A DNA stretch of 64,000 nucleotides from Ampullaceana balthica (Eukaryota; Mollusca; Gastropoda; Lymnaeidae). Of the stretch, positions 1 through 26,100 are shown piece by piece. Made by a program: the position numbers and the translations under genes. The stretch's first letter is position 1. Every line of letters starts with the position of its first letter. Location of the stretch: contig CALYLW010000137.1 of NCBI GenBank assembly GCA_944989445.1, forward strand, positions 1,122,134 through 1,186,133, read 5' to 3'. Under the pieces are notes generated by a model that did not search any database, had not been told where the DNA came from, and saw nothing but the letters and a program-made list of their open reading frames with translations.

Positions 1-2
1 AC

Positions 3-167
3 TATAGCACTGGTTCTCTGAAGTTGATCCTGTAGAATTGGTTGTATTGCCAGCTGGACATGTCTTACATGCATCTTGCCATTTCTCATTGTTGTATGTC
101 CCTAGTGGACAAACTTCACACTGATTGGATCTTGGGTTCCTGTACTCTCCTGGCTTGGTACAGTTTC
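3..167 (-). CDS. GCC module type A, copy 1 (last exon in the window)
   Basis: A complete A-type exon whose GT donor is the first two bases of the window. The gene therefore continues beyond base 1, possibly with more cassettes. Confidence 0.9.
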
Positions 168-3100
168 CTTGATAGATAAATGTAAGCAAGATTAAATCCA
201 TGATTCCTAAATTGCATGAACTGTTAGTTTCTGTATGCTGAAGTGTTTAGTAACAGAGAAAAAATGGATAATTCACTGCTTTAACTGTAATGTAAGTGAG
301 GTACATGTAATTCTATTATTGCTTAACCATTTAGTTGTTATCAATTTTTTAATATAAATATTAACAAAAATTGAGATTATATCCGTGAAGCAGTTTGATT
401 AAATGGATTGACAAAAAATAAACAATAAAAATTTTTAATTGGTCACCCCTGTCTACCATTTTAAAATGAGTAATTCACTAACATAGAAATCAGCTTGTCC
501 TAGTAATTGGCTAGTATAGTAATGTACTCACTTATAGAGCAATCTGTTTCAGAAAGTCCACTGCTATTTTTGGCTGTTATGAAATCAACAGGACACATAA
601 CACAAACTGTTTCAGTTAGAATGGATGTATTTCTATAGTAGCCTTGTGGACATGGGAGACATCTGTTTACAGCAGTACAGTTCACTGGAAGAGTTAAGAA
701 ATTATTTAAGAAATCTTTTTTAGGGGGAAATTTATTTTTTAAAATTTGGAATTACAACACACAAAAAAATGCTTCAATCTGCTTCTTAAATTCTAATTAA
801 CTCTGTGACTTCTTGTTTTGTTTGTATCTGCATTCATCTCACGGTCGCCATCCACAAATTTTATGTCAAAGCAATGGAATCTATTTCTGTTAAAATTAAT
901 TATTTGCAAAATTCAGAACTAAAATTAAATAATTCATTTCAAATTAAAGCCCTTAAGGTTGACCTAAAAAGTGACAGCTTTCAAGCAGCTTGGCCTTTCT
1001 TTACCCCTTTTTCCCTCGGACCCACCCCACTTATATAAATATTTTTGCTTTTATGCAAAAAAAGTTCTAAATGTATTTATTAATTAAATAGGCAAATGCC
1101 TTAGAAAACAAGCCACCCATGAAATATATTTTAATAAAATAACTTTAAAGACTTTGTTAAATATAAAGTCTTACAAAGTGTACAGTTATCACTGGACGTT
1201 GAACCAACAGCAGAAGTAGTGTAATTAGATGGACATTCCTGACACTGCCAGCTGGATGAAGCATTTCTATAGAATCCAATTGGACAGTTAGTACACACAT
1301 TTGTGAATTCATTAACCTGCTGACCTGATGGACAAATGCCTGAAAAGAAACATACAAAATTAAGATTTTTCTTAGTAGTTTGGAATATTTATTAGTTTTT
1401 TTTTAATTAAAGGACACATTTTTTATCATTCGCAATGCTTCTTTTGACTAATATTTTGTTGAAGAAATGTATTTTTTATTTCAAAACACAAGCTTGAAGG
1501 TAATATTTTCTATGCTAGATATTTAGATCATAGTGCCTTTACTTAGTTTATGAACATTTCTACACATATAAAGAGTATTTAGTACAGAACTTAGGGCCAT
1601 CCATAAAGTAGGTCACGCTCCAGAGGAGGGGAGGGTGTGCATGGCCGTATGCAGGGGGGGTTCGTACGTTCGAACGAACCCCCTTTTGCGAATTTGTGCC
1701 CTTTTTTGTAACAAATAGACCTTTACATTATTGAGATATTTGGGGGATCCTACTACAGAATATGAGTGGCCAGTGTTATGATGGCGCTGCACTATGTCGG
1801 ACACTGTCTCAGGAGTCCAAGCGCGTATTCTGCGAGAGGCCTCTGTGGCGGTATACACACACTGCAGCAATCACGCTTTAAACCTAGTGATCTCGCATTC
1901 ATGTGGACTTCCCGATGTGCGTAATATGATTGACAAATTAAAAGAAACCTGCATGTTTTTTAACAACAGCCCAGATTCGCAACCTTGTTCTCGCTTTTCA
2001 ATGTTCTTTAGTTTTTATTTCAACAGTTATTTTTTCCCTCTCTTATAATTGTCTTCGTGTGTTTGTTTTTTTTGAAGATAATTTATCAGTTTATTAAACT
2101 TTGCACATACAAAAATTACGAATACTGTACTGTCTTAATACAAAATTTGTAAATTCGGTTGATCACACACAAAAACAATACGCTAACAGACCGAATGCTT
2201 ATACATCAGTGCGGATGTGCAGGCTCACTAATGAATTTCCAGGGAAAAGGGAGTTTCCCTTTCTGCGTCACTCATTATGCGAATCTTTGCTCGTTAAGGG
2301 AGCAAGTTTTTCCATAAAAATGTTGCTCATTATGGAAAAATCTCGTTATAAGAGGTGCTCGTTATGAGAGGTTTGCAAAATCTTAACATGAAATGCCTTT
2401 GCGACAAGTTTGCAAACCCCCCTTAAAAAATTCTGGGTACGGCCTTGGGTGTGTAAGAACGACAGTTTGTGACGGGAAGGGGGGGGCGTTTTCCGGCCAT
2501 GTGTGATGTCACGGTGTTTCTATTAAATTGTAATTATTTTGTTAATAAAAATAACAAAATTTGTTCGAAAGTGTTACATACTTTAGGGGGGGTGTCTGAG
2601 ATTTGTGACAGTTTGTGAAAGGGGGGGGGGAGGAGTTTAAATTGTAAAAAATAGTATGATGTACTTTATGGACAGCCCTTATTTGATGTCAAGACTGTTT
2701 TAGCACTTTTTAAATCCTTTATATTAACTCGTGGTGTCTGCTTGAGGCAGGCGGGCGGATGGTGCAGGAAAAATTTGGATCGATTTTTAACCCACTTCCT
2801 CATCAGCTAGTGAGCTGAAATTTTGCAGACAGACTCGTGCCAATGATAAAAATGATTTCTCAAAATTTCAGATAAATCGAATGTACCGTAATTAAATTAG
2901 TGAATTTTTAGATTACCTTGATTTATCTTTACGTCACATGTTAAATTTTTTTGCTATAGTGTCGTGGTGCGTATTATATTGAACAACCTTTCCTGTCGTG
3001 CAATAAGGTGCGTATTTTATTGACAATACTTTTTATAAACATATTCCTGATCGGTCTGCATTATATTAAACATGTTTTATGACACATAACTACAATTTTG

Positions 3101-6100
3101 TAGTTTTGGTTTGTCTTTCGCTGCATATTATAATCAACATTCTTTTAGTTATGTCAAGTACATAAAGGATTTATAGTAAAAAACTTGGTTTTTTATTGTT
3201 TTTTTTTATATTTCTATGTACAACTCACTATAGCACTGGTTCTCTGAAGTTGATCCTGTAGAATTGGTTGTATTGCCAGCTGGACATGTCTTACATGCAT
3301 CTTGCCATTTCTCATTGTTGTATGTCCCTAGTGGACAAACTTCACACTGATTGGATCTTGGGTTCCTGTACTCTCCTGGCTTGGTACAGTTTCCTTGATA
3401 GATAAATGTAAGCGAGATTAAATCCATGATTCCTAAATTGCATGAACTGTTAGTTTATTTATGCTGAAGTGTTTAGTAACAGAGAAAAAATGGATAATTT
3501 ACTGCTTTAACTGTAATGTAAGTGAGGTACATGTTATTCTATTATTGCTTAACCATTTAGTTGTTATCAATTTTTTAATATAAATATTAACAAAAATTGA
3601 GATTATATCCGTAAAGCAGTTTGATTGAATGGATTGACAAAAAATAAACAATAAAATGTTTAATTGGTCACCCCTATCTACCATTTTAAAATGAGTAATT
3701 CACTAACATAGAAATCAGCTTGTCCTAGTAATTGGCTAGTATAGTAATGTACTCACTTATAGAGCAGTCTGTTTCAGAAAGTCCACTGCTATTTTTGGCT
3801 GTTATGAAATCAACAGGACACATAACACAAACTGTTTCAGTTAGAATGGATGTATTTCTATAGTAGCCTTGTGGACATGGGATACAGCCGTTTACAGCAG
3901 TACAGTTCACTGAAAGAGTTTAATTATTTAAGAAATCTTTTTTAGGGGGAAATTTATTTTTTAAAATTTGGAATTACAACACACACAAAAATGCTTCAAT
4001 CTGCTTCTTAAATTCTAATTAACTCTGTGACTTCTTGTTTTGTTTGTATCTGCATTCATCTCACGGTCGCCATCCACAAATTTTATGTCAAAGCAATGGA
4101 ATCTATTTCTGTTAAAATTAATTATTTGCAAAGATTCAGAACTAAAATTAAATAATTCATTTCAAATTAAAGCCCTTAAGGTTTACCTAAAAAGTGACAG
4201 CTTTCAAGCGGCTTGGCCTTTCTTTACCCCATTCCCTTGGACCCACCCCACTTATATAAATATTTTTGCTTTATGCAAAAAAAAGTTCTAAATGTATTTA
4301 TTAATTAAATAGGCAAATGCCTTAGAAAACAAGCCACCCATGAAATATATTTTAATAAAATAACTTTAAAGACTTTGTTAAATATAAAGTCTTACTAAGT
4401 GTACAGTTATCACTGGATGTTGAACCAACAGCAGAAGTTGTGTAATTAGATGGACATTCCTGACACTGCCAGCTGGATGAAGCATTTCTATAAAATCCAA
4501 TTGGACAGTTAGTACACACATTTGTGGATTCATTAACCTGCTGACCTGATGGACAAATGCCTGAAAAGAAACATACAAAATTAAGATTTTTCTTAGTAGT
4601 TTGGAATATTTATTAGTTTTTTTTTAATTAAAGGACACATTTATTTCAAAACACAAGCTTGAAGGTAATATTTTCTATGCTAGATATTTAGATCATAGTG
4701 CCTTTACTTAGTTTATGAACATTTCTACACATATAAAGAGTATTTAGTACAGAACTTAGGGGCAGTCCATAAAGTAGGTCATGCTCCAGAGGAGGGGAGG
4801 GGATGTAAGAAAGTACAACAGTTTGTGAGGGAGGGGGGGTCAGGCCACGTGTGATGTCACGATGTTTCTATTAAATTGCCATTATTTTGTTAATAAAAAT
4901 AACAAAATTTGTTCGAAAGTGTTACATACTTTAGGGGTGGGAGGTGTCTGAGATTTGTGACAGTTTGTGAAAAGGGGGGGGGGAGTTTAAATGGTAAAAA
5001 ATAGTATGATGTATTTTATGGACGGCCCCTTATTTGATTCAAGACTGTTTTAGCACTTTTAAATCCTTTATATTAATTCGTGGTGTCTGCTTGAGGCAGG
5101 CGGGCGGATGGTGCAGAAAAAAAATTTGGATATATTTTTAACCCATCTTCCTCGTAAGCTAGCGAGCTGAAATTTTGCAGACAGACTTGTGCCAATGATA
5201 AAAATGATTTCTCAAAATTTCAGATAAATTGAATGTAACGTAATTAAATAAATGAATTTTTAGATTACCTTTATTTATCTCTATGTAACATGTTAAATGT
5301 TTTTGCTATAGTGTCGTGGTGCGTATTATATTGAACAACCTTTCCTGTCGTGCAATAAGGTGCGTATTTTATTGACAATACTTTTTATAAACATATTCCT
5401 GATCGGTCTGCATTATATTAAACATGTTTTATGACACATAACTACAATTTTGTAGTTTTGGATGCTGCATATTATAATCAACATTCTTTTAGTTATGTCA
5501 AGTACATCAAGGATTTATAGTAAAAACTTGTTTTTTTAACTGTTTTTTTTTATATTTCTATGTACAACTCACCATAGCACTGGTTCTCTGAAGTTGATCC
5601 TGTAGAATTGGTTGTATTGCCAGCTGGACATGTCTTACATGCATCTTGCCATTTCTCATTGTTGTATGTCCCTAGTGGACAAACTTCACACTGATTGGAT
5701 CTTGGGTTCCTGTACTCTCCTGGCTTGGTACAGTTTCCTTGATAGATAAATGTAAGCAAGATTAAATCCATGATTCCTAAATTGCATGAACTGTTAGTTT
5801 CTGTATGCTGAAGTGTTTAGTAACAGAGAAAAAATGGATAATTCACTGCTTTAACTGTAATGTAAGTGAGGTACATGTAATTCTATTATTGCTTAACCAT
5901 TTAGTTGTTATCAATTTTTTAATATAAATATTAACAAAAATTGAGATTATATCCGTGAAGCAGTTTGATTAAATGGATTGACAAAAAATAAACAATAAAA
6001 ATTTTTAATTGGTCACCCCTGTCTACCATTTTAAAATGAGTAATTTACTAATATAGAAATCAGCTTGTCCTAGTAATTGGCTAGTATAGTAATGTACTCA

Positions 6101-9100
6101 CTTATAGAGCAGTCTGTTTCAGAAAGTCCACTGCTATTTTTGGCTGTTATGAAATCAACAGGACACATAACACAAACTGTTTCAGTTAGAATGGATGTAT
6201 TTCTATAGTAGCCTTGTGGACATGGGAGACATCTGTTTACAGCAGTACAGTTCACTGGAAGAGTTAAGAAATTATTTAAGAAATCTTTTTTAGGGGGAAA
6301 TTTATTTTTTAAAATTTGGAATTACAACACACAAAAAAATGCTTCAATCTGCTTCTTAAATTCTAATTAACTCTGTGACTTCTTGTTTTGTTTGTATCTG
6401 CATTCATCTCACGGTCGCCATCCACAAATTTTATGTCAAAGCAATGGAATCTATTTCTTTTAAAATTAATTATTTTCAAATATTCAGAACTAAAATTAAA
6501 TAATTCATTTCAAATTAAAGCCCTTAAGGTTGACCTAAAAAGTGACAGCTTTCAAGCGGCTATGCCTTTCTTTACCCCTTTCCCTTGGAGCCACCCCACT
6601 TATATAAATATTTTTGCTTTATGCAAAAAAAGTTCTAAATGTATTTATTAATTAAATAGGCAAATGCCTTAGAAAACAAGCCACCCATGAAATATATTTT
6701 AATAAAATAACTTTAAAGACTTTGTTAAATATAAAGTCTTACTAAGTGTACAGTTATCACTGGATGTTGAACCAACAGCAGAAGTTGTGTAATTAGATGG
6801 ACATTCCTGACACTGCCAGCTGGATGAAGCATTTCTATAGAATCCAATTGGACAGTTAGTACACACATTTGTGGATTCATTAACATGCTGACCTGATGGA
6901 CAAATGCCTGAAAAGAAACATACAAAATTAAGATTTTTCTTAGTAGTTTGGAATATTTTTTAATTTTTTTTTAATTAAAGGACACATTTTTTATTATTCA
7001 CAATGGTTCTTTTTGGCTAATATTTTGTTAAAGAAATGTATTTTTTATTTCAAAACACAAGCTTGAAGGTAATATTTTCTATGCTAGATATTTAGATCAT
7101 AGTGCCTTTACTTAGTTTATGAACATTTCTACACATATAAAGAGTATTTAGTACAGAACTTAGGGCCATCCATAAAGTAGGTCATGCTCCAGAGGAGGGG
7201 AGGGGATGTAAGAAAGTACGACAGTTTGTGACGGGACGGGGCGGGGGGGGTCAGGCCATGTGTGATGTCACGGTGTTTCTATTAAATTGCCATTATTTTG
7301 TTAATAAAAATAACAAAATTTGTTCGAAAGTGTTACATACTTTAGGGGTGGGAGGTGTCTGCAGATTTGTGACAGTTTGTGAAAGGGGGGGGAGTTTAAA
7401 TGGTAAAAAATAGTATGATGTATTTTATGGATGGCCCCTTTTTGATTCAAGACTGTTTTAGCACTTTTAAATCCTTTATATTAATTCGTGGTGTCTGCTT
7501 GAGGCAGGCGGGCGGATGGTGCAGAAAAAAAATTTGGATCTATTTTTAACCCACTTCCTCGTAAGCTAGCGAGCTGAAATTTTGCAGACAGACTTGTGCC
7601 AATGATAAAAATGATTTCTCAAAATTTCAGATAAATCGAATGTAACGTAATTAATTAAATGAATTTTTAGATTACCTTTATTTATCTCTATGTAACATGT
7701 TAAATGTTTTTGCTATAGTGTCGTGTTGCGTATTATATGGAACAACCTTTCCTGTCATGCAATAAGGTGCGTATTTTATTGACAATACTTTTTATAAACA
7801 TATTCCTGATCGGTCGGCATTATATTAAACATGTTTTATGACACATAACTACAATTTTCTAGTTTTGGATGCTGCGTATTATAATCAACATTCTTTTAGT
7901 TATGTCACGTACATAAAGGATTTATAGTAAAAACTTGTTTTTTTACTGGTTTTTTTTATATTTCTATGTACAACTCACCATAGCACTGGTTCTCTGAAGT
8001 TGATCCTGTAGAATTGGTTGTATTGCCAGCTGGACATGTCTTACATGCATCTTGCCATTTCTCATTGTTGTATGTCCCTAGTGGACAAACTTCACACTGA
8101 TTGGATCTTGGGTTCCTGTACTCTCCTGGCTTGGTACAGTTTCCTTGATAGATAAATGTAAGCAAGATTAAATCCATGATTCCTAAATTGCATGAACTGT
8201 TAGTTTCTGTATGCTGAAGTGTTTAGTAACAGAGAAAAAATGGATAATTTACTGCTTTAACTGTAATGTAAGTGAGGTACATGTAATTCTATTATTGCTT
8301 AACCATTTAGTTGTTATCAATTTTTTAATATAAATATTAACAAAAATTGAGATTATATCCGTGAAGCAGTTTGATTAAATGGATTGACAAAAAATAAACA
8401 ATAAAAATTTTATTTGGTCACCCCTGTCTACCATTTTAAAATGAGTAATTCACTAACATAGAAATCAGCTTGTCCTAGTAATTGGCTAGTATAGTAATGT
8501 ACTCACTTATAGAGCAGTCTGTTTCAGAAAGTCCACTGCTATTTTTGGCTGTCATGAAATCAACAGGACACATAACACAAACTGTTTCAGTTAGAATGGA
8601 TGTATTTCTATAGTAGCCTTGTGGACATGGGAGACATCTGTTTACAGCAGTACAGTTCACTGGAAGAGTTAAGAAATTATTTAAGAAATCTTTTTTAGGG
8701 GGAAATTTATTTTTTAAAATTTGGAATTACAACACACAAAAAAATGCTTCAATCTGCTTCTTAAATTCTAATTAACTCTGTGACTTCTTGTTTTGTTTGT
8801 ATCTGCATTCATCTCACGGTCGACATCCACAAATTTTATGTCAAAGCAATGGAATCTATTTCTTTTAAAATTAATTATTTTCAAATATTCAGAACTAAAA
8901 TTAAATAATTCATTTCAAATTAAAGCCCTTAAGGATGACCTAAAAAGTGACAGCTTTCAAGCGGCTTGGCCTTTCTTTACCCCTTTCCCTTGGAGCCACC
9001 CCACTTATATAAATATTTTTGCTTTATGCAAAAAAAGTTCTAAATGTATTTATTAATTAAATAGGCAAATGCCTTAGAAAACAAGCCACCCATGAAATAT

Positions 9101-12100
9101 ATGTTAATAAAATAACTTTAAAGACTTTGTTAAATATAAAGTCTTACATAGTGTACAGTTATCACTGGATGTTGAACCAACAGCAGAAGTTGTGTAATTA
9201 GATGGACATTCCTGACACTGCCAGCTGGATGAAGCATTTCTATAGAATCCAATTGGACAGTTAGTACACACATTTGTGGATTCATTAACCTGCTGACCTG
9301 ATGGACAAATGCCTGAAAAGAAACATACATAATTAAGATTTTTCTTAGTAGTTTGGAATATTTATTAGTTTTTTTTTAAATTAAAGGACACATTTTTTAT
9401 TATTCACAATGGTTCTTTTTGGCTAATATTTTGTTAAAGAAATGTATTTTTTATTTCAAAACACAAGCTTGAAGGTAATATTTTCTATGCTAGATATTTA
9501 GATCATAGTGCCTTTACTTAGTTTATGAACATTTCTACACATATAAAGAGTATTTAGTACAGAACTTAGGGCCATCCATAAAGTAGGTCACGCTCCAGAG
9601 GAGGGGAGGGGATGTAAGAAAGTACGACAGTTTGTGACGTCCGGGCCACGTGTGATGTCACGGTGTTTCTATTAAATTGCCATTATTTTGTTAATAAAAA
9701 TAACAAAATTTGTTCGATAGTGTTACATACTTTAGGGGTGGGAGGTGTCTGAGATTTGTGACAGTTTGTGAAAGGGGGGGGGGAGTTTAAATGGTAAAAA
9801 ATAGTATGATGTATTTTATGGACGGCCCCTTATTTGATTCAAGACTGTTTTAGCACTTTTAAATCCTTTATATTAATTCGTGGTGTCTGCTTGAGGCAGA
9901 TGGGCGGATGGTGCAGAAAAAAATTTGGATCTATTTTTAACCCACTTCCTCATAAGCTAGCGAGCTGAAATTTTGCAGACAGGCTTGTGCCAATAATAAA
10001 AACTTATGTCTCAAAATTTCAGATAAATCGAATGTAACGTAATTAAATAAATGAATTTTTAGATTACCTTTATTTATCTCTATGTAACATGTTAAATGTT
10101 TTTGCTATAGTGTCGTGGTGCGTATTATATTGAACAACCTTTCCTGTCGTGCAATAAGGTGCGTATTTTATTGACAATACTTTTTATAAACATATTCCTG
10201 ATCGGTCTGGATTATATTAAACATGTTTTACGACACATAACTACAATTTTGTAGTTTTGGATGCTGCGTATTATAATCAACATTCTTTTAGTTATGTCAC
10301 GTACATAAAGGATTTATAGTAAAAAACTTGGTTTTTTACTAGTTTTTTAAATATTTCTATGTACAACTCACCATAGCACTGGTTCTCTGAAGTTGATCCT
10401 GTAGAATTGGTTGTATTGCCAGCTGGACATGTCTTACATGCATCTTGCCATTTCTCATTGTTGTATGTCCCTATTGGACAAACTTCACACTGATTGGATG
10501 TTTGGTTCCTGTACTCTCCTGGCTTGGTACAGTTTCCTTGAAAGATAAATGTAATTCAGATCAAATCTATTATTTCCAAGCTTTTTAAATTTGTTTTAAT
10601 GTTTGCAGAGAAATCAAATCCATGATTTCTAAACTGCCATACTGTAATGTGAATGAGATGAAGTCTGTTTATTTCTAAACCATTTACTTGTAATCAATTA
10701 ACTTTATATGGAAAAAAGTAGTATATAAGATTTTATCCATTCAGTAGTTTTGTCAGACACATCAAGAATAACATTTTAAATTTCTTTATTTCTTAACTAG
10801 CAACAAAGCCCATACAAGGACGGGTAAAGGTAGGGTGGCCTGTGAAGTTAATGGAAGGACATCACTACATTACCCACCCCTGTCTGTCCAGAGACCCTAA
10901 AACCACCCACACCGCGGTCTGTCAAGAGACCCTCCCTCCCCCCCTCACCGCGGTCTGTCCAGAGACGCTATCTCCCCCCACCAACACCGCGGTCTGTTGC
11001 AAGCGCCTACATCCCCTCCACCGCAGTTTATCAAGAGACCCGCCGTCCCGTCCGGCCATAAATGTATTATGTCAAAAATACTATACATTATAGTTATAAC
11101 AACATTACCCACTCCCGTCTGTCCAGAGACCTTACCTCGCCTCCACACTTCTGATCTGTCCAGAGACCCTACCTCCCCACACCGTGGTCTGTCAAGAGAC
11201 CCTACCTCCCCCAACACCGCGGTCTTTCCAGAGACCCTGTGTCCAGAGTTATAATAAATAACCCGTAAATACAAAGTTTTTTATTACAAATCCCAACGCG
11301 CACCGCTAAAAATAAACTCTTGGGAAAAAAATGCACCAAAAATAACACGTTTTGAACGTCGTTCAATGTATAAATGAGGCATAATTTTTCTCCACAAGTG
11401 ATTGGCTGTAGGAGTCTGTAGGAGTTTGAGGGACCAATCGCTATCGATGACCGCAGAGAACATTGCCTTTTATTATATAGGATGTATTTTAGTAAAAGAA
11501 GCACACATTAAAATTATAAGAAAATATATTTATCCAAAATTGTTTAAATTGGAAGTCTTACTAAGTGTACAGTTATCACTGGATGTTGAACCAACAGCAG
11601 AAGTTGTGTAATTAGTTGGACATTCCTGACACTGCCAGCTGGATGAAGCATTTCTATAGAATCCCATTGGACAGTTATGACACACATTTGTGGATTCATT
11701 AACCTGCTGACCTGATTGGCAAATGCCTGAAAAGAAATATTAAATTAAACAACCCCGTAAAAACAAAGTTTTTGACTATAAATCCCTTATATATGAGACA
11801 TAACTAAAAGTATTGATTATGTTCAAACGTGACAAACATTTACAGACTGAAACCGACTGATTTCCCCTTGCTGCAAAAACGGGGAAGGGGGGGAGAAGTG
11901 TGGTATTCAATGGCTGGCGTGAACTCAAGCAAGGGACATGTGATTGCAAACAACAACAGACGTTACATTAAGTTATATAGGGATAAACTAAAAATGCATT
12001 GATTTAATTACGGTACATTCAATCGATCTGAAATTTTGATAAGATGCATTGTTAGATGACACAAGACTATGTGCAAAATTTCAGCTCGATAGCATCACAG

Positions 12101-15100
12101 AAAGTGTGTCATTTTTTACTTTTGTTTTTTCGCCAGCCAGCGAACGATAGACAGAGAAAGATGACGACAAGATGGCAAAAATAATAAAAGGGATTTAAAA
12201 ATTAAGATTATTTCTTAGTAGTTTGGAATATTTATTGATTTTATCAAATTAAAGGACACATTTTCAATTATTTACAATGGTTCTTTTTTACTAATATTTT
12301 TTTTAAGACATGTATTTTTATTTCAAAACACAAGCTTGAAGGTAATATTTTCTATGCTAGATATTTAGATCATAGTGCCTTTACTTAGTTTATGAACAAT
12401 TCTACACATATAAAGAGTATTTAATACAGAACTTATTTGATTTTCAAGACTGTTTTGGCACTTTTATATTTCTATGTACAACTCACTATAGCATTGGTTC
12501 ACTGAAGTTGATCCTGTAGAATTGGTTGTATTGCCAGCTGGACATGTCTTACATGCATCTTGCCATTTCTCATTGTTGTATGTCCCTAGTGGACAAACTT
12601 CACACTGATTGGATCTTGGGTTCCTGTACTCTCCTGGCTTGGCACAGTTTCCTTGAAAGATAAATGTAATTCAGATCAAATCTATTATTTCCAAGCTTTC
12701 TAAATTTGTTTTATTTTTTATTTATTTATTTTTTATTTTTTTTTGGGAGGGTTTTTTTGATGTTTGCATTAAGAGAGATCAAATCCATGATTTCTAAACT
12801 GCCATACTGTAATGTGAATGAGATGAAGTCTGTTTATTTCTAAACCATTTACTTGTAATCAATTAACTTTATATGGAAAAAAGTAGTATATAAGATTTTA
12901 TCCATTCAGTAGTTTTGTCAGACACATCAAGAATAACATTTTAAATTTCTTTATTTCTTAACTAGCAACAAAGCCCATACAAGGACGGGTAAAGGTAGGG
13001 TGACCTGTNNNNNNNNNNNNNNNNNNNNNNNNNNNNNNNNNNNNNNNNNNNNNNNNNNNNNNNNNNNNNNNNNNNNNNNNNNNNNNNNNNNNNNNNNNNN
13101 NNNNNNNNATCTGAAATAAAATCAAATAACATGATGAAATGTTTTATAAGCTAATGTTAAATAATTTCTAAAAATAGAACTAGCATAATTTTAATTTGTA
13201 TAATAAATGAGGAAATTAATAGAAGGAGATTAAAATGACACGTGTTTCAACACCATTAAATGGCAATTTAAGGAATAAATAAGGATGTCAAAGAATTTTA
13301 GTAAGTTTAGATGTAGTTTAGTGTTTTAAATGTTTATTCTTTATTAGGTTTTTTTCATAATAATCAGAATTGGTTTATTTTAATCACATTGGTATTTCAT
13401 TTTGTTTCCCCCATAATATCTAATCATATCTTGTTAATGCTAGATCTAGTCAAAAAACAAATATGTGAATTTTTATAACATTATTTAGGACCAGGTTTGT
13501 ATTTTGGAACATTTAAATATTCTTTTGCCTTTTTCAAAGTTTGTGATCTAAGTTGTTACATTTAAGCCTTTTTAAATTACTACACGCTGGTTGTAATTTC
13601 TACTTTGACTATGCTTTTAAAATTAATTCACTGATATGATAAATTTGACTATATAAGCAATTCAGGCATTGAGGGTCATCTTGGAAGGGCTTGAAGTTAT
13701 TTATTATGATATATATCATGGATTAGTCATATAGGAGTTGATATGTTAATACAGAAATATAGAAGCTTATACTTTAATCTGGATATATAACTACACTTAT
13801 TATTTATTTGAATTTCCTTGTTAAATTAAAATTGCTAAAGAATAAGCCTTTAAAACAGTATTAATTTTGTTAGAACGTAATTATTGCTCTGTCGTTTTTT
13901 TTCCTTTTAAGCCCTAATGCTTAATTCTTTTAAATTTGAAAATAACAACACTGACTTGTACAGAAAGATGATGAGTCACTCCCCTTGCTAGGAGTTGTCT
14001 GTCCTGGTGGACAGCTCACACAAGAAAGTAGCCCGGATGCATCTGCAAATTGACCCTTAGGACAGTTCTCACACTCAGTAATATTTACGTTGTAAAATGT
14101 ACCCAGGCCACAAGACACTGAAACAAATTAGCATTTAAAAACAAAATTAGTTGTAAAGGTTAAGGTTGACCAACAGTAATAATTATGTCATTTTTACCAC
14201 AATCATAATTTTAGACTTTATTGTTTTGTTTGTTTCTGAAAAAAAAGTTTTGAAGAAAATGAAACTAACTGTAACCTCTTTTCTGAATGGTGTAATATTC
14301 TCAAAATATAAGGCAAAACAAAAGAAAAGCTATAGTGAGTTCTGGACCAAACAGTTATAACAAAATATGAAGAAGTTAATGAATTTTTTAAAAAGTAAAA
14401 ATATGTAGGTATTCACATCTGCATTCACAGTTATGCCTCAAAAATTCAATGAAATAAAACAATAATGATTTTGTCCGTGACATAAACACACAGGTCTTAC
14501 AGAAAATCCTTAATAGAAGAAACTTCACAAATGGATCTAATGGCAACTAACATCTAAAATAACCACCGAAAAGATAACCATCAACAAAAAATCCAATTTT
14601 CAAAGTCTAACTAATATATTAGCTAGCTTATTTTTTTTCTTTTTTTTTCTCTTCTTCACATAAGCAGATGACAAATTTTATAATTTAGAGTGAGCATGCT
14701 GGTGGCGTGCAAGTTACATTTGTGCCCAGAAATTTTTCCTGCACAAGTTGTTTAGGTTTAATAATAATAATAATAACCCCTTTTCAGACCATGATGACCC
14801 ATCTTATCTTATCTTATCTATACAGACACTCCTTCTATGCAGAAGATAATTGCGTCCACAGACCATGACAGATGATCTGTTGGCAAGTGATGCAGCGATC
14901 ACAGGCCACGGCTTTGTGGGTTCCACGCATTTCCCAGCCGCCTAACTAGTGTTAGGTACCCATTCGGAGCTGGGTGACTCAGGGACGCCTTAGGCCTCGG
15001 GAACAAATCATTGCCTTCACATGGATTCGAACCCGTGACCATCAGTACTCCAGTCGAGCGCGCTGCCACTCGACCACCGCGCCCCCATGGGGCAAGTGAA

Positions 15101-17071
15101 GTAGCGTTCACAAGTTTCATTGAGCCACCACTAACGAGGAAGGGATTGTGTGGCTAGAACAATGCCCTGGGGGCTTTGCCATCACCGAGGCTTGAACCTG
15201 TGACTCTCTTTTGCCTCGGTTCGACAGTTACATCCCACTCTCCCACCATGTACGTTATCAATGCCTACTCTCCCCCACACCCATCCCATACAAAAATCTT
15301 GTGTGACCCTCTCCTGATCACTACTCCCACTCTCCCACACAATCCTTTCCCAATGCCTCAGCACTCTCTCACACCTCTCTAGTGTAGCCCTCTCCACCAT
15401 CCTTCACTCCCACTTCTTTGTCCCCTATTTAACAGCCTTCCTTCCCCTACTTCCCTTTTCCTTCTCTTCTGCACGTACCTATCACATATTCTCTCCTTCA
15501 CCTCCACGTTCAACACCCAACTCTCACTAGTTATCCTCTGGCATTAAAAGAAAATCTCAATCATCAATTAAAACAAATTTCTACATTTTGAATCCACATC
15601 CAATAATTGACTCACCACACAGCCCATTTCGGACCACTTGACCAATAGGACAGACATAGTTGACAGAGATGACAAACTCATCTTTGCTCATTGATGCTGA
15701 TGGAAAGATATTCTAAAGAAAAAAAATGAAATTATCACAATTTACCCAATTTAAATAAAACTTTACAAGTACTGGGTACTGTCAGAAATAAATGTTGTTG
15801 TTTTTTGTATTTTTTGTAGAAAGTTTTGGGAGGACTAGATAATATCAACAAATCTGTGCCAACTATATGTGTATATAGTTTTGTTTCTTTATTCTTGAAA
15901 AATAGAATCGCCTCTAAGGTTTGTTATCTAACATTTCTAAATTGATTTTTTAAAAGATATTTAGGCTAAATTAGATATTTTTTTTAATCAATCAGAATTG
16001 CTGAGAGATTTGTATTAAAAAGTTTCCAATAAAATCAATAAACTCTCTTATATACTCCTCATTGAACGTCATTCAGCTATTTCTATATAATTTTAATGTT
16101 GAACCAGAGATCACAACACCTGCCAGGTGTTAAAATTATCTTTACAAAAGATATCTCTCGTTTTAAATTAAACATAATTAAGATAGTTGAAATAGCTCAG
16201 AAAAACTTACAGAAATACTGAATGCGTTGTTATCTAGAACTGCAACCAGGAATACATCATTGATTGTCATGCTATTTGTGCTGTTGTCTAATTTGGATCT
16301 GGAGTAGAAATTTTTTCAATTAACTAATTTTTTGTGTGTATGCCATTGCTTAAAATTAATTTTTAGCCTAAATCTCTTGCTGCAACCCACACACCCAATT
16401 AAAAGTAAATAAATTAATAAATATAAACAATTAAATTTATAGCTCAAATTCACTGAACATTAATGAATTTCATGAGACTAAATAAAACTATTGCCCTTAT
16501 CAAATAAATTTAAAAAAACTTACGTCACATTTGTCAACCCAATGTTTATGAAAATATTGAAAGGAAGACTACAGTTGACCTGGACGCTTACATCAGAGCA
16601 GTTAGCAGCTGAGCACATTAGGCTTCCCCATTGCTGGCTCAGCTGAAAAATTTGAACATCAACAAAATAGAATATTTATAAGAATGTATATCACTTGTCA
16701 CATTGAGAAATAAAACTTTTTTTTTATGTAGAAATAGAAACATCAACTTTCCTGGTACCCAGCACTGTAGTGAGCTCACAGGCAACTAACTGTCCATTGG
16801 ATGGCAACATGGATTACAAGAAGAAAAAAAAACAGACAAAGCCAGATAAAAACCTTGGAAAGGTCTTGTAATGTCCTGTTCCTCACAGCCTGCTCAGCTC
16901 CAACGCAGCCTGTTTCATTTATTTTATAATTGAAGGTCAACCTTACATTCACCTTGGCATCCTCATTTATTGCTGCAACAAAATCCAAAAAGAAAAAGCC
17001 TGAAGCTCAAATGATTCATTAGATATCTGTTATCACTTGTGGACCCAACACCAAAAATCAAAACCGCTTTT

Positions 17072-17113
<42 letters not shown>

Positions 17114-17118
17114 TTCTT

Positions 17119-17155
<37 letters not shown>

Positions 17156-20100
17156 TAATATGTTTCATATGACAATTTACTAAGATATTTTTTTTAACTC
17201 GGAATAATTTCAAACAATTTCTTGCTGGCTGTTATGCTATATTTGGTTGTGAATTTTTAAACAATCAAATGTACATTTTTATTTATACAGTTTTTGGTTA
17301 TACTTTGGCTTGAACTTGAGGTAAGTTTTTGCAAAATACTTTCTTCAGGATGCAATGCAACACAAGAAACAAAATATAATTATAATCAGAATTCACCAAT
17401 GTACATGTTCAAAAAGCTCAATGTAGTTATATTAATTCCTCTTCACCAATTTAAAATGTCAAAGGTTGTGTTAGTAAGTTCTCATATTATTATTTTAACA
17501 TTAATGTTGCAACATGTAACATTTTCCCTCCTAGCTATTTTTTTGTCAACAGTTTAAGTGAGCACAGATTATAAACTAAACATTTTCAAGTCTTCTCCTT
17601 AATTGTAATCTTCTACACTCTTTCCTATCTTAGCTTTTCCATGTCAACCTCTGTGTACCAAGTGTCATTAAAGTAATATAACTTGGAAATAAATCTCTAA
17701 TCAAAGGAGTTAAAAGTAAAACTTTCTCTACTCACGTCCACAAGCTGGGTACAGGCCGTCAGTCAGTGAATTCCAGTCTCCGTCTGGGCCACAGGTTAAA
17801 TAAGTCGGATGGTCCCTGACAAAAGTGAAATTCAAGGGGCACCCAATGCTGCAAGATGAAAAGTTTCTAACATCTGAGCAGATGTCACGTCCCATTGCCC
17901 CTAGGGCGTGTGATTTTGGGACAAAATGCAGCTGAGCGAAAAGAAAGAAAAGTAAATACTTGATTCTCAGGACTTAAATTATGAGCAGATGGAAATTTAC
18001 TGTCTGGCTCCTTCTTGACCATGAAAAGAAATATGTACTTTCTACCCATCATGCATGGTAACTTAACTAAAAAGAAAATAACACCACATATATTTCTAGT
18101 GTCATAATATGATGAGTCAATTTAGAGCAGTTTTAAAATTAAAATTAAATGTTCAGAAGAAGCCCTAGGTGTAATAAAACTGGGGGATATATAAATTAAA
18201 CAGATCTTTAGAGATAAGAAATTAACACTGAACTGTGGTATTAATTTCCCAGACAACCAGTACAGAGAGAGTGCAAACTTACTATTTATGTAGATGGAGA
18301 AGTCGCAGAGTGCAGCATTACCAAACTCATCTTTTGCCACATACACAACTGTGTGTTTCCCTTGTGTGAAGTTAGCACCTGGCAAAGGTCAGTTATATAA
18401 AACTTTAATTGGCGAATGCATTGAAAACTACTGGGAACTGTAAGAGAAATTAATAGAGATATAAAAACTTGATTGAAAGCAGTGTGAATAAGCAAATAAG
18501 TGAACCTGGTGTGTTTGTTGATGAAATATTCACAGTCTCATTAAAAACGGGCGCAGTCCAAGACACCGCTTCTTCCTGATAGATACTTGATACAGCGAGA
18601 TTGGCTGGACAGTCCACTATGACAGGAGGTGAAACATCTGAGGAAATCATACATGAATAGACTATTTATATTCAGTCGCAAAACTTTTGGTACTTTTACA
18701 TTTATTTTTTAAAGACTTCAGAAAAAAAAACAGATTCAAACATACTGTTTGTCTAAGCTTTATGCAAAACTTATTGCCTCTTATTTATTTTTTAATTTTA
18801 ATTTTATTTGTAGCTGCCAGTGACGTGTTATAAAGATCTTTTCATAAATTGAGAATAATTTATTTTTTTTAATCTACCTGTATCTGTTTTAAATTAACTT
18901 TCCAAATTAACATATTTTCATTCTGCTACTTCCTAAATCATAATAAAATCATATTAAATTCATGATTTTAAAATATTTTAAGTAAGATATTTTCAATGAG
19001 TTTGGCTTACCTCTGGGAGCTGGACACAATTGGGAAACACCAACACACTTATTTAAGCTTGCAGCGGAGGGGCGAATGACCAGAACATTTCCATAGACTT
19101 GAAGCTCACCCCATCTAAACACATCTCCCAGGTAAGTGCTTGGGTTGTTGCGCACGAGGGGTAACTCTGAGCTTATGTTTAGAGCCCGGCTCAGCACGTC
19201 TAGTCTTGACACGCAGCCATAGAAGCTCTTACCTCCCCCTGTTTTAGGTGTTCCCACAACAGGCAGGAATCTAAGTAAAACAATTTTTATAATAGTACCA
19301 TGACTTTTTTGTTAAATAGCTGTACAATTTAATAGTTAAAAAACAGTTTCCTCTAAATGTAGGTATAGGGGCCGTCCATAAATGACGTCACACGATTTAG
19401 GCCGATTTTTTACCCCCTCCCCCCTCGTCACACGTTGTCACAAAAAGTTAGACCCCCCCCCTCTAAAAATACGTCACAAAGCTTTGACCCCCCCCCCAAA
19501 AAAAAACACCATATTTTCTATATGCCAATAAGTATGTTTCAAATCACTTTTATTGTCATTTAAGCATTTATTATTTATTTAGTGAAGGTCTACATTGTAA
19601 TATTGTAACCCGCGTTTTTTAAAACGCTTAACCGGTCTTTAGAAAACGAACTGTGTTAACATCCTTAGATTACATTTTATTTTAATGCATAAAAATTAAA
19701 CATTGACTATTAATCATCACAGTTAACGTATTTTTTACAAAAAAATTATTTAAAAATAATATTTTTAAATTGTATTTTTTTTAAAATCCCTCAATTGACT
19801 GACGGGCATCCCGTAAGAAAGAGGTCGGCGAACAGGAGTAAATAACCTAATCTGAGGTCAAAAGGGAATTCTTGGGGGTAATGCAGACTTATTTGGGACA
19901 TATAACATCCACTACAATCCACTAGATATATTAAAATACATCATGTGTACGTGTACGCTTGGAAAATATGCCCATTATTGAACCGGTTCTGACAACTATG
20001 TAGATTTCTTACCTACATACTATACGAAGACACCTAAATCCACACTACTTTCATTTATATTGACACGAGTGACAATAGGCCTAATCTTAATCCACATGAC

Positions 20101-23100
20101 TTGTCTGTATCACGTATCCTTTCTGGGATATTTAAAATTAATGCCTTAAAAACTGAGCTAAGAAGAAAAGTTGTTTTGTGCTCCTCTCAAATAGCGATGT
20201 AATGAATTTGATGCATTCAAGAAAGTCAATGAATACTTGACTAATTTTAAATGGGCTCATTTATCATTATATCTAGAATGGCCAGGGGCGTTTGACCACA
20301 AACCAATCGAACAATTATATCAAACTTAAAACGTTTATAATTCTATCAAATATTTCTTTTTAAAGAAAAATGATATTCCGTGTCGTTTTGACTTAAAATA
20401 TCTTCACATAATCCTAGTCAGATCATTTTTAGACACTTGTCATGCTTGTAAAACTCACCAGTAGCATTTTTGGGGGAGGGGGGGGGCTAACAACGCTCCC
20501 CCAAATCCCAGGAGTCATGTGAGCAGGACCTAGAGCCTCGGGGTTGGAGGGGGGGGGCGTGACGCACACATAAACTTGTATATTTTGGGGTAACGGGCAA
20601 AAAAGTCGCCTGCCGTGAGAGAACCAAGCGGAGCTGTGGTTACATCACAAATGCTTTGATGTCAACATCAAACGAAGCAGGGTAACAATTTCATACGTTA
20701 TCTTGGGGTTCTCAAACTTAAGGATTATAATTAGCTTTAATTTTCGTGTCTTGATAGCTTACGCCAACCAGCGTCTGATGGCCTACCGATGGCACATTGA
20801 GAAGCACTGATTTTTTTAAAAAAAGAAAAAGACAAAAAAAAATTTTAAAGTTATTAAATAAGTTGTAAGCAACCACATATTTCAGTGGGAGTTTTATTAA
20901 AGTTACCCTTTTGATGTGATGTCACATTTCTTCAACCCCCCTCCCTTCCCCTCGTGACGCATCGTCACAAAAGTGTGACACTAGGTGCGTGATGTCACTT
21001 ATGGACGGCCCCATAGAGACTGGCCAAAGTCTTATGTTAAAATTTGATAGATGTCAACTTTAGCAATAAAATATAGCATTATTTAAAGAACATTAAAACG
21101 ATGACTGTGTCTGAGCAACATTAGATATTCTCTTACCCCTGTTTCTTATGGTGTCAATAAATTTTTGGCAAAGTCTTTTATGTTTGACCTTATTTATGAG
21201 ATGGAAACCATCTATAGGAAGCAAAGACTTACTTTCTACAAACTTTTTGGAATAATACTAAATCCAAATACCATTTAAAATTGTATGCACCCAAAACAAC
21301 TCAAATTTCCTCCAAAACACATTCAGTTTTCTCACCCTCCTCCTGATAGTGCTGCTCTCTGCAAACCAGACAGGGCGCTGGTGTTATTGAAGTCCACAAC
21401 CAGGTCAAGGCGACCATCCCCCTTTCTCCAGGACACTATGATGTAATGCCAGTTCCCATCATTGACTGGCTGACCACTGTACCGGAGATGAGATGAATTC
21501 CTGAGCTGTACTCCCTGGTGGTCAAGAGAGAGGACAGGTTCCAGGGTGTCACTGGTGTATCCACTCCTTGAAATCAAAATAGTTTTACAATGTTTACAGC
21601 GTTACCACAGTGATGAGGTTCAGCCACAACACAACATGGTACAAAGTAATGAGGAAATCTCATATACTCAGCACAACTGATTGCCAGGCATTCCATGTAA
21701 CCAGGGTGCCGCCAAGTAACCAGGGTGCGGCCAAGTAACCAGGGTGCTGCCAAGTAACCAGGGTGCTGCCAAGTAACCAGGGTGCCGCCAAGTAACCAGG
21801 GTGCCGCCAAGTAACCATGGTGCCGCCAAGTAACCATGGTGCCGCCAAGTAACCATGGTGCCGCCATGTAACCAGGGCCCTCCATGTAACCAGGGCACTC
21901 CATGTAACCAGGGCACTCCATGTAACCAGGGCACACTATGTACACTTTAAATAACCAGGCTGTTACGTTCTATGTTCTAGTATTTGTATGATCGAAAAGA
22001 CAGGCCAAAACTCAACCCCGCCAGGACTATATATATATTAGCTTAATATCTCTAACCGTTTACAACGTGCTTCCACTCATAACAACATCTATGGTAGAAC
22101 TGACTACTGACTGCCTAACCGTGCTATGTTACATTCCCTAACACACTTCATATCCCCTAGCACTGCGTCATAATTAAAAGTGTGTTCAATATAATACCCA
22201 CCATGCCACAGACTAGCATAAACATTACTGATGGAGAAATCCCCATTACCTCTAATATTGTCCTGGACATATTCACTTCAAGATTCAATTCATGGAGTTA
22301 AATCTATAACCTTAAAATTATACCAAACCAAAGAAACATTTCAAAAATAAAAAATAGTGAGGCCTAAGTTTATCACAACGATGTTAAATAGCTCAGTGTG
22401 AAAATTGAAAAGAAAAAAAAACCTGTTCACAACAAGATTATTAATAATTGAATTATCACACAAATTCTTTCTAACAAAGAATCATTCATTGATTGTCCCC
22501 CGAATGAGACATACGTTATGTGATAACATATATTTTTTTTGTCTGTACCACTCATACAAAATAAACACTACTTGCTATTTTAACACGATTATCATGAATA
22601 TTTTCCATATATATTTTGGACAGGCCTACCCACTTTTCTCTTTTAACATGGCATATTACCCTGACCATGTTTAAAGATTACATATGGTATTTAGACTTTT
22701 TTTAAATCCCAAAAGTACTACAGCTCTTGTATGATTGCCTCACACACCTTGTCACTAAACAAAGCAAAAGTAAAAGCAAAAAAATCAACACTTCCAGTTA
22801 ATCCCTTCACTAGACCAACAACCAACACTTCCAATTAATCACTTCACTAGACAAACAACCAACACTTCCAGTTAATCACTTCACTAGACCAACAACCAAC
22901 ACTTCCAATTAATCCCTTCACTAGACAAACAACCAACACTTCCAATTAATCACTTCACTAGACCAACAACCAACACTTCCAATTAATCCCGTCACTAGAC
23001 CAACAACCAACACTTCCAATTAATCACTTCACTAGACCAACAACCAACACTTCCAGTTAATCCCGTCACTAGACCAACAACCAACACTTCCAGTTAATCC

Positions 23101-26100
23101 CGTCACTAGACCAACAACCAACACTTCCAGTTAATCACTTCACTAGACCAACAACCAACACTTCCAGTTAATCCCGTCACTAGACCAACAACCAACACTT
23201 CCAGTTAATCACTTCACTAGACCAACAACCAACACTTCCAGTTAATCACTTCACTAGACCAACAACCAACACTTCCAATTAATCACTTCACTAGACCAAC
23301 AACCAACACTTCCAGTTAATCACTTCACTAGACCAACAACCAACACTTCCAATTAATCACTTCACTAGACCAACAACCAACACTTCCAATTAATCACTTC
23401 ACTAGACCAACAACCAACACTTCCAGTTAATCACTTCACTAGACCAACAACCAACACTTCCAATTAATCACTTCACTAGACAAACAACCAACACTTCCAG
23501 TTAATCCCTTCACTAGACCAACAACCAACACTTCCAATTAATCACTTCACTAGACAAACAACCAACACTTCCAGTTAATCACTTCACTAGACCAACAACC
23601 AACACTTCCAATTAATCACTTCACTAGACAAACAACCAACACTTCCAGTTAATCACTTCACTAGACAAACAACCAACACTTCCAGTTAATCACTTCACTA
23701 GACCAACAACCAACACTTCCAGTTAATCACTTCACTAGACCAACAACCAACACTTCCAGTTAATCACTTCACTAGACAAACAACCAACACTTCCAGTTAA
23801 TCACTTCACTAGACCAACAACCAACACTTCCAGTTAATCACTTCACTAGACAAACAACCAACACTTCCAGTTAATCACTTCACTAGACCAACAACCAACA
23901 CTTCCAGTTAATCACTTCACTAGACCAACAACCAACACTTCCAGTTAATCACTTCACTAGACCAACAACCAACACTTCCAGTTAATCACTTCACTAGACC
24001 AACAACCAACACTTCCAGTTAATCACTTCACTAGACCAACAACCAACACTTCCAGTTAATCACTTCACTAGACCAACAACCAACACTTCCAGTTAATCAC
24101 TTCACTAGACAAACAACCAACACTTCCAGTTAATCACTTCACTAGACAAACAATCATCTGAGCTAAATAGTCACATGTGTAATATAAATTTTGCTGCAAA
24201 CTTTCAAAAAAAAATTCTTCATAGATTTCAGATCAGATTAGATTTTGAAGGTTAGGTTATCGAATAAAAGATTCACACTAACGTTGCATAGTAGAGAGCC
24301 AAAAACGTCCCTGTAGCTCCAGGTGTTGTGTATCTGACCCAAAGTTTGACAGTGAAGCCGTCTGTATCGTTGTAAGGTGCCGGGTAGTTCAGCTCAGCAC
24401 CTGAGTTGTCCAGTGACGGTTTCATGCACACATCAAAGTCATCATTGACGTCTGGGGATAAAACACAATGAACAATTCAATTGATAGTTTCATGCACACA
24501 TCAAAGTCATCATTGACGTCTGGGGATAAAACACACTGAACAATTCAATTGATAGTTTCATGCACACATCAAAGTCATCATTGAGATCTGGGGATAAAAC
24601 ACAATGAACAATTCAATTGATAGTTTCATGCACACATCAAAGTCATCATTGACGTCTGGGGATATAACACACTGAACAATTCAATTGATTCCTAAAATTG
24701 TGATTATGGTTAACTGATTACATGAAAGATTTAATTATGTATGATAAATTTAACAATTCTAGTCCAGTTTATATGCGTTATTATTTATTCAAAGTTTGTA
24801 ACTGTCTGCAATCTATAAACACTGCTTTGTCTGCATATTATACCAACTGTTTCCATTTTTGTGCATACTCTATAAACTGATTCTACCGGTTTCTATGGGT
24901 AGTGACCAATGTTCCCTTTAAGCTGCGCGGGTGCGCGACCGCGCAGATATTTGGCAGACCCCGTGCAGCAGTTTGGAATTACCGCACAGCAAATTTGCTA
25001 TAATATTGCACAAAATATGGATGCTGGGCAACTTTGCACACAAGTTTTATGACTTTGCACACGGACCAACGAACCTTAGAGGGAACATTGGTAGTGACTT
25101 ACCTTCAGTGCATTGTCTCCCTTTCTTCCCAACTGGACACCGACAAAATGACTGAGATAAACCATCAATGCACCTTGCACCTGTGGGACAGGTGGTCTGA
25201 CTGCAGGTGTTGACGTGAGTGTCACACTGAGCCCCAGTGTATTCTGACATGCAGGGGTCAAAAGAGAAAAAAATGAAAAAAAATTCCAACATTGGCCAAC
25301 CAGATCAACCAGGGATACTTTCAATGTCATTTGTACAGAAGTCAACCATTGTAAATAATAGAGAAGATTTTTAAAAAATTAAGTGATGTTGTGTTTCATG
25401 CAGAGGAAAATGTGTCCGCCTCTGATATTAGAGTTGAAGTCTATCTCACAAAATAAAGCTCAAGCCTAATGACAAAGTCTTGCAAACTTCTCATAGATGC
25501 ATCAAGGCATATGAAGGGCGCGTGCCTAAATGGCTATGATGGTTAGTACTCACCTTAGTTAATACCCGCCCAAGTCTTCACCCATTAACATTTTAAAATA
25601 AAGCCTATATTGCTACTAAGATAAGGTGATCCTGGGGGGGGGTCACTTCCCCACTTACTTGTTTTATTTTAAGTGGTGACTTGATGTACACCAGAAAACA
25701 AAAGTAAATAACTTTCCAATGGGAAATGGTAATTTTTCAGAACAAAAAAAAACCCACAAAGGGAATACTACATAGAAGACAAATTTGATTTTTTTAGCAT
25801 CCCTTACCTTAAAAAACCCAACATAAACACATAAGACATCTTATCTATAACAGACAATTCTTCTATATAAAAGACATGGTCAAATATGTAAATACTAGAT
25901 AAGCCGCAGAGTTATTCATCATGCTTATTAGCTCGAGTCTTGTACTTTCATTATTTATGGTGAATTATATTTATAGACTAGTGCAGTGCTTCTCAAACTT
26001 TTTATTATTGTGGACCGGCAGGAATTTTTTTCATTGCACCAGGGACCGGTGAACTATTTTCCCTGCACTGACGTGGTAGCGAAATGTCCTTTCCTTGGTA

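Follow-up and report, generated by a model that had tools for sequence, protein, structure and literature searches.

We analysed a 64,000-nucleotide stretch of the genome of the snail Ampullaceana balthica (hereafter the window; C137:1,122,134-1,186,133, part of contig C137 of a 1.097-Gb assembly), in which a gene on the minus strand, with its 5' end at the right of the window, carries a tandem array of exons for GCC2/GCC3 modules. Whole exon-intron cassettes are repeated head to tail inside this one gene, the unit measuring 2.3-3.2 kb and containing three exons, each of which encodes one complete module. As judged from sequence, the array most likely forms the stalk, next to the membrane, of a very large type I surface protein, and it probably represents a lineage-specific expansion of that stalk, by repeated unequal exchange among in-frame exons, that changes stalk length. 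The recent tandem amplification within one gene proposed in an initial annotation of the window is borne out by the exon layout, the likeness of the copies and their mosaicism.

Organization and likeness of the array copies

Fifteen GCC2/GCC3 exons, comprising six A exons (165 bp), five C exons (165 bp) and four B exons (153 bp), lie on the minus strand within window positions 1-12651. Fourteen of them were found by a pattern search, with AG/GT splice sites, a length divisible by three and phase-1 ends, and the GT of the remaining A exon (3-167) coincides with the window edge. The order in the direction of the gene is A-C-A-(C-B-A)x4 in the window, as follows.

3..167, minus strand: exon A of cassette u1; its donor is at the window edge, and the array goes on leftward on C137
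532..684, minus strand: exon B of cassette u1, splice pattern
1175..1339, minus strand: exon C of cassette u1, splice pattern
3229..3393, minus strand: exon A of cassette u2, splice pattern
3757..3909, minus strand: exon B of cassette u2, splice pattern
4396..4560, minus strand: exon C of cassette u2, splice pattern
5573..5737, minus strand: exon A of cassette u3, splice pattern
6102..6254, minus strand: exon B of cassette u3, splice pattern
6743..6907, minus strand: exon C of cassette u3, splice pattern
7979..8143, minus strand: exon A of cassette u4, splice pattern
8507..8659, minus strand: exon B of cassette u4, splice pattern
9148..9312, minus strand: exon C of cassette u4, splice pattern
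10372..10536, minus strand: exon A of older unit o5, splice pattern; no B found beside this A
11562..11726, minus strand: exon C of older unit o5, splice pattern
12487..12651, minus strand: exon A of the oldest visible unit, o6, splice pattern
13009..13108, no strand: 100-N assembly gap bordering the array on its upstream side; may conceal more modules
13956..14117, minus strand: non-amplified GCC2/GCC3 module, which groups with position 1 of other stalks

The array is cut by the left window edge, and the contig sequence further left adds two cassettes, v1 and v2. The whole array on C137 consists of 21 exons (8 A, 6 B and 7 C) in the order A-C-A-(C-B-A)x6, with six B-bearing cassettes. The 15 window modules of the initial annotation, arranged as four C-B-A cassettes and two A-C units, were thus all recovered, whereas the counts of modules and cassettes rise to 21 and six on the contig. 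The splice pattern captured 20 of the 21 exons, the last A being read by eye, and the captured exons all had phase-1 ends, in line with the earlier claim that every array exon is of phase 1. Because every exon begins and ends in phase 1, any copy number keeps the frame. Self-alignments within the window reach 3,557 bp at 97% identity, a length and identity that exclude chance likeness. With one B-bearing cassette as the query, all six aligned over at least 1,600 bp, and the two older units aligned only piecewise. The 100-N gap starts where the match between o5 and o6 stops; the upstream end of the array is therefore not closed, and modules may be concealed there.

The likeness of the copies was measured as the best within-array protein identity of each module, with matches shorter than 39 residues dropped. 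In this array, 20 of the 22 modules have a partner at 0.92 or above, 12 of the 22 having an identical one, and the other two modules reach 0.38 and 0.83. For two comparison arrays of the same genome, picked for many hits to the Pfam family PF07699, the best partner identities were 0.33-0.44 (C155, 19 modules) and 0.37-0.44 (C116, 16 modules). For Aplysia, Babylonia, P0004, P0193, Batillaria, Bulinus, Biomphalaria, Dreissena and a Lymnaea paralogue, the best partner did not exceed 0.50. Nine of 14 modules in Physella are at 0.92 or above, 12 of 23 in Elysia crispata at 0.70-0.88, and 12 of 20 in Elysia marginata at 0.70-0.92. Strong within-array likeness is thus found beyond the present genome, yet it is not the rule.

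Further arrays were seen during these comparisons. The C155 (C155:183001-202000) and C116 (C116:787001-802000) arrays consist of strongly diverged GCC2/GCC3 modules, those of C155 matching a Lymnaea stagnalis protein at 75.5% identity over 1,038 columns. In a related gene, P0036 (Biomphalaria glabrata LOC106069146), 11 of 25 GCC2/GCC3 modules are at 0.60-0.90, perhaps through another amplification. Two GCC2/GCC3 exon pairs with equal profile scores, C531:403336-405519 and 489478-497189, lie approximately 86 and 92 kb apart, which suggests duplication of a gene or segment.

Exchange among cassettes and order of insertions

In the alignment of the window cassettes u1-u4, variable columns made up 13 of 483 in the exons and 105 of 1,836 in the introns (p = 0.005). 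The two short introns (27/848) do not differ from the exons (p = 0.74), and the long A-to-C intron (78/988) does. When columns within 10 of a gap were dropped, the short introns (20/739, p = 1.0) and the long intron (43/698, p = 0.005) gave the same pattern, and the difference between all introns and the exons was no longer significant (p = 0.11). The initial annotation had described the introns as being as similar as the exons, which holds for the short introns but fails for the long A-to-C intron. Selection alone was set aside as the cause of exon likeness, since the short introns show the same degree of similarity. In the long intron, u1-u4 differ by 2.5-5.7%. Between older and young units, the homologous intron stretch beside A is 78% identical over 232 columns, and the A exon of each older unit is distinguished from those of the young cassettes at 3 of 162 codon-position bases.

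All 18 exons of the six cassettes are free of stops and retain six cysteines. Seven synonymous and eight non-synonymous distinct changes were counted in the six cassettes, the hybrid last A being left out, where 78% non-synonymous changes were expected (p = 0.029). These counts provide weak evidence of purifying selection among the young copies.

The signals of exchange were examined as runs of agreement between the window cassettes, compared with column permutations. Significant runs were observed for u2-u4 (p = 0.002) and u1-u3 (p = 0.008), the u1-u2 pair was borderline (p = 0.03), and the other three of the six pairs were not significant (p values uncorrected). In addition, when all six cassettes were compared, the nearest neighbour of u1 in the long intron was v1 in 100% of bootstraps, versus 0.1% in a block running from the A-B intron through exon B into the following intron, in which v2 or u3 was nearest instead and tree supports were only 61-67. 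With near-gap columns dropped, v1 was nearest to u1 in 83-98% for the long intron and in 0.1-0.4% for the exon-B block. The cassettes are mosaics. The copies, which the initial annotation held to be either young or kept alike by conversion, are both young and mixed by exchange.

The last A exon agrees with its neighbour over the first 72 bp and then shows 19 differences, and the 60 bp downstream look unrelated, indicating that the array edge lies inside this exon. Exchange centred on exons might explain alike exons in unlike introns, but it is countered by the two older A exons, which differ at 6 bases where the adjoining intron is 99% identical. Overall, the one-module phase-1 exons, the head-to-tail repeats, the long homologous introns and the signs of exchange fit unequal crossing-over and conversion.

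Two insertions in the long intron, one a miniature inverted-repeat transposable element (MITE)-like sequence, bear on the order of events.

9569..9829, no strand: MITE-like element in the long intron, with GGGCC...GGCCCC ends read by eye; empty site in o5
1636..2455, no strand: approximately 810-bp dispersed repeat inside the MITE of the long intron, boundaries approximate

The MITE-like element, putatively Harbinger-like, is dispersed elsewhere in the genome; it is flanked by TTA on both sides in u4, and the right TTA is TTT in u3. The 810-bp insertion is present in only two of the six cassettes, v1 and u1, and 57 bp are missing from one of the six. Among 149 variable gap-free columns, private sites numbered 27 for v1 and u1 and six for v2 and u2, many of them beside gaps; upon dropping columns within 5 to 15 of a gap, those of v1-u1 fell to 14 to 7 and those of v2-u2 to three. 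Differences between v1 and u1 occur at 7 of 825 columns of the insertion and at 14 of 1,046 columns of the long intron.

No remnant of B was found in the older C-A intron (score 27.2, versus a shuffled mean of 26.9 and maximum of 38.5). Module order in the orthologues suggests that B would have been lost from the older units. The comparison of the young C-B intron with the older intron scored 66.9 against a shuffle maximum of 51.6, a result that was not used.

The stalk-bearing protein and its orthologues

After the last A exon, the gene continues into an exon with a hydrophobic, transmembrane-type stretch and then into an exon with a basic tail and the stop, both called by hydropathy and by eye. 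The domain-rich part of the gene lies upstream of the array.

15616..62798, minus strand: upstream part of the same gene, with C-lectin, LDLa, CUB x3, sushi, EGF, HYR, GCC2-like, EGF, laminin-G and HYR; bounds approximate

The placement of the array between this part and the hydrophobic and tail exons indicates a juxtamembrane stalk. The upstream model was stitched by exon-by-exon splice choice; it is approximate, may miss exons and extends short of the most 5' exon. Its Pfam matches comprised Lectin_C, LDLa, CUB (three stretches), Sushi (four), HYR (one per half), EGF and laminin-G, and a third HYR-like exon and further sushi-like exons were recognised in the gene by eye. Domains of the usual binding types lie outside the array.

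A six-module segment of the array matched Ephrin_rec_like (PF07699) in six stretches (E = 1.2e-63, above the curated cut-off). In an exon-by-exon genome search with PF07699, in which 150 of 259 candidates were scored, all eight A exons and all seven C exons exceeded the Pfam cut-off, and none of the six B exons was among the matches listed. The nearest relatives by sequence in the PDB were the mastigoneme-like protein Mst1 (8tx1, E = 6.8e-12) and Eph receptors (E 0.0008-0.009). An Rfam scan of the whole window at gathering thresholds gave no matches.

Several irregularities were seen in the upstream part. A sushi exon (window 45940-46240) shows an apparent one-base frame change within its module, near 46.1 kb, which may be a base-calling error, a polymorphism or a damaged allele. 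At 50247-50439, 3.1 tandem copies of a 63-bp (21-codon) unit take in the start of an EGF exon, from its acceptor through the first codons, and acceptor-like sites are thereby repeated. Four tandem copies of a 68-bp unit (24419-24689), a length that is not a multiple of three, likewise seem to cross from the acceptor into the opening codons of the laminin-G exon. In addition, an intronic 37-bp minisatellite of the same gene has 37 copies with 96% matches (22786-24153), and several imperfect repeats of approximately 0.2-0.8 kb and 75-85% identity apparently lie in one intron (46925-48820).

Protein searches, of which the results below are the examined part of long lists, yielded the same layout in Elysia crispata, Aplysia californica, Babylonia areolata, Bulinus truncatus, Biomphalaria glabrata and Physella acuta. 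The same domain order, with a GCC2/GCC3 run before a C-terminal hydrophobic segment, is seen in Aplysia LOC101861248, Babylonia LOC143287751 and Elysia crispata RRG08_001670, and likewise in Biomphalaria LOC106061064, Bulinus Btru_036094 and Physella LOC131956252. For P0001, P0002, P0004, P0005 and P0026, collinear similarity amounts to 36-44% identity over 1,145-1,324 columns in the N-terminal part and 34-43% over 1,272-1,452 columns in the EGF/laminin-G part. P0003 is without part of the N-terminus. The gastropod family (P0001-P0005, P0026 and P0169) is collinear and carries a GCC2/GCC3 stalk ahead of a transmembrane segment and short tail, as judged by hydropathy and by eye.

A purpose-built profile counted 14 stalk modules in Aplysia, Babylonia and P0004, 20 in Elysia, five in Bulinus and four in Biomphalaria, versus at least 22 in the present genome; the counts for other species rest on gene models that are possibly incomplete. 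The Physella record, marked partial, has a stalk of 12 modules with nine near-identical C modules. The run in P0193 has 14 profile hits and that in Batillaria P0253 (partial) 13.

A module tree was built from seven proteins (six gastropod proteins including P0004, plus Dreissena, with Physella left out) and seven modules of this genome, with positions numbered as in Aplysia, Babylonia and P0004. A grouped with position 12 (local support 0.94), B with position 11 (0.87) and C with position 13 (0.83), and the upstream module (13956-14117) grouped with position 1 (0.80 among gastropods, 0.90 with Dreissena). These are short modules, and support at some inner nodes is low, at 0.37 both for the group of A copies from this genome and for B with the planorbids. 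The ancestral stalk apparently had 14 distinct modules, and from the positions of A, B and C the copied unit is B-A-C in the ancestral register. The three-exon cassette of the initial annotation is thereby retained, but not its C-B-A register.

In Elysia, the pairs 6/12 to 11/17 share 70-88% identity, which constitutes a six-module duplication; Elysia marginata appears to share it, in a model that carries the annotation Pol polyprotein and is possibly a chimera. The amplifications of C modules in Physella and of a six-module block in Elysia look like events separate from the one described here, although near-identity within a species can reflect either separate amplification or separate homogenisation.

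The domain set resembles known proteins in part. Passages on Drosophila Uninflatable (Uif) describe a very large single-pass protein with a C-lectin domain, three CUB, eight sushi, three HYR and 18 EGF domains (PMC3340373, PMC12867482), which can antagonise Notch in flies (PMC3340373, PMC12867482, PMC13178913). The snail model similarly has C-lectin, three CUB, four sushi and two HYR stretches, EGF and a hydrophobic exon. Conversely, Uif has two FA58C domains, for which the approximate stitched snail model gave no match, and those passages mention no GCC2/GCC3 array. The comparison is by description only, and the resemblance is in domain set and not membership; orthology is not claimed. SVEP1/polydom likewise shares sushi, EGF, HYR, GCC2/GCC3 and pentraxin/laminin-G-type modules, and several database relatives are so named. 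The SVEP1-named P0006 and P0008, however, carry von Willebrand A and pentraxin domains with four GCC2-type hits each, and are without a comparably hydrophobic C-terminal segment.

Candidate origins of the array and stalk length

The observations can be ordered into a proposed series of events. The starting point would be a run of 14 different phase-1 module exons, of which this lineage shows only position 1 and positions 11-13 (B-A-C). An older exchange would have produced the A-C units, after which the MITE-like element would have entered the founder of the young cassette family, and the founder cassette would have multiplied to six by unequal exchange. The 810-bp element may then have entered one copy, and the stretch carrying it may have been copied again, most simply as a two-cassette block. 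Gene conversion or crossing-over would have mixed the copies, with the modules remaining foldable. The resulting longer spacer, possibly variable in length, would set the distance of the lectin, CUB, sushi and EGF domains from the membrane. Expression of the gene, the spacer function, the exact order of exchange and variation among individuals are points that we infer.

Several findings weigh against such a stalk expansion. It rests on the DNA of one genome assembly, and, given the apparent frame change near 46.1 kb, the allele in the assembly may be disrupted at a point upstream of the stalk. The evidence for purifying selection is weak (7 synonymous versus 8 non-synonymous changes, p = 0.029), and such selection was not seen in the old-young A and C pairs (pS 0.029, pN 0.027). 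With private sites shrinking under the near-gap filter, the case for a two-cassette duplication depends chiefly on the insertion that v1 and u1 share. The assembly gap touches the array. Outside exon A, the members of the v1-u1 and v2-u2 pairs are only 0.6-2.6% apart by segment, within the molluscan allelic range, and duplication of the v1-v2/u1-u2 block by the assembler is therefore possible. These last two points would also fit a wholly artefactual array, the real gene having one or a few cassettes and the tandem order arising from haplotypes or misplaced reads. We consider this very doubtful, because one cassette per haplotype would give two types at most, and the six distinct sequences need at least three per haplotype, even with every one of them taken as a haplotype duplicate. 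Moreover, u1-u4 are 2.5-5.7% apart in the long intron with differing insertions and deletions, the older units differ in structure, and no copy of the array was found on other contigs among the scored matches. A genome search with a cassette lacking the 810-bp repeat, in which 40 of 3,632 first-look candidates were scored, so that the counts are lower bounds, gave at least six full or nearly full copies and at least four older-unit pieces, all on C137; at least 32 matches on other sequences cover essentially the MITE part only.

Two other accounts accept the array but read its length or its surface differently. In neutral tandem turnover, introns bearing transposable elements and in-frame exons would let the copy number drift, a longer stalk bringing no benefit. 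Stalk size indeed varies both ways (4-5 modules in the planorbid models, 14 in Aplysia, Babylonia and P0004, 20 in Elysia and at least 22 here), different lineages amplify different blocks, and pN equals pS between old and young copies. The six cysteines, open frames and splice sites are nevertheless kept, and there is a weak synonymous excess among the young copies; kept modules, however, speak against a dead array and not against neutral length, and neutral turnover is an appreciable possibility, if not the one we favour. The array could instead itself be a recognition or adhesion surface with variants that differ between individuals, since GCC2/GCC3 modules are extracellular and cysteine-rich and have a mastigoneme-like protein and Eph receptors as sequence relatives in the PDB. 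This appears improbable, as the copies are alike rather than diversified, 12 of the 22 modules having an identical partner, and the usual binding-type domains are elsewhere in the protein.

Under the favoured stalk expansion, reach is the property expected to change. At an expected few nanometres per GCC2/GCC3 module, 22 modules would reach several times further than four or five. It is conceivable, though we think it rather unlikely, that the stalk is an evolvable ruler, in which lineages amplify different blocks (B-A-C here, C alone in Physella and six modules in Elysia) or shed modules, as in planorbids, with copy number differing among living individuals and reach under selection.

Human loci such as LPA provide the best-known coding repeats built from entire exon-intron cassettes. 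Passages on LPA KIV-2 describe a 5.6 kb unit with two exons of approximately 160 and 182 bp, present in 1 to approximately 40 units per allele (PMC11462820). The snail array shares with KIV-2, as described there, a multi-exon cassette with introns, tandem within one coding gene and with highly similar copies, whereas it has three one-module exons, a 2.3-3.2 kb unit, GCC2/GCC3 modules and a transmembrane protein, and is represented by one assembly. No published record of this array was found among the open-access papers listed (titles or abstract starts) on Uninflatable, GCC2-GCC3 or Ephrin_rec_like in molluscs or snails, or on exon duplication; those listed for Ephrin_rec_like in molluscs dealt with the evolution of Eph and ephrin.

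Cassette amplification in a coding gene is thus already known, and what is added here is a readable ancestral register and the amplification of different blocks in other gastropods. Because the apparent 14-module ancestral state can be read from other gastropods, the founding unit, its register, a partial order of events and the processes in Physella and Elysia can be told apart. The array would therefore offer a tractable system in which to ask whether the length of a receptor-like stalk is under selection, and how fast that length changes within populations.

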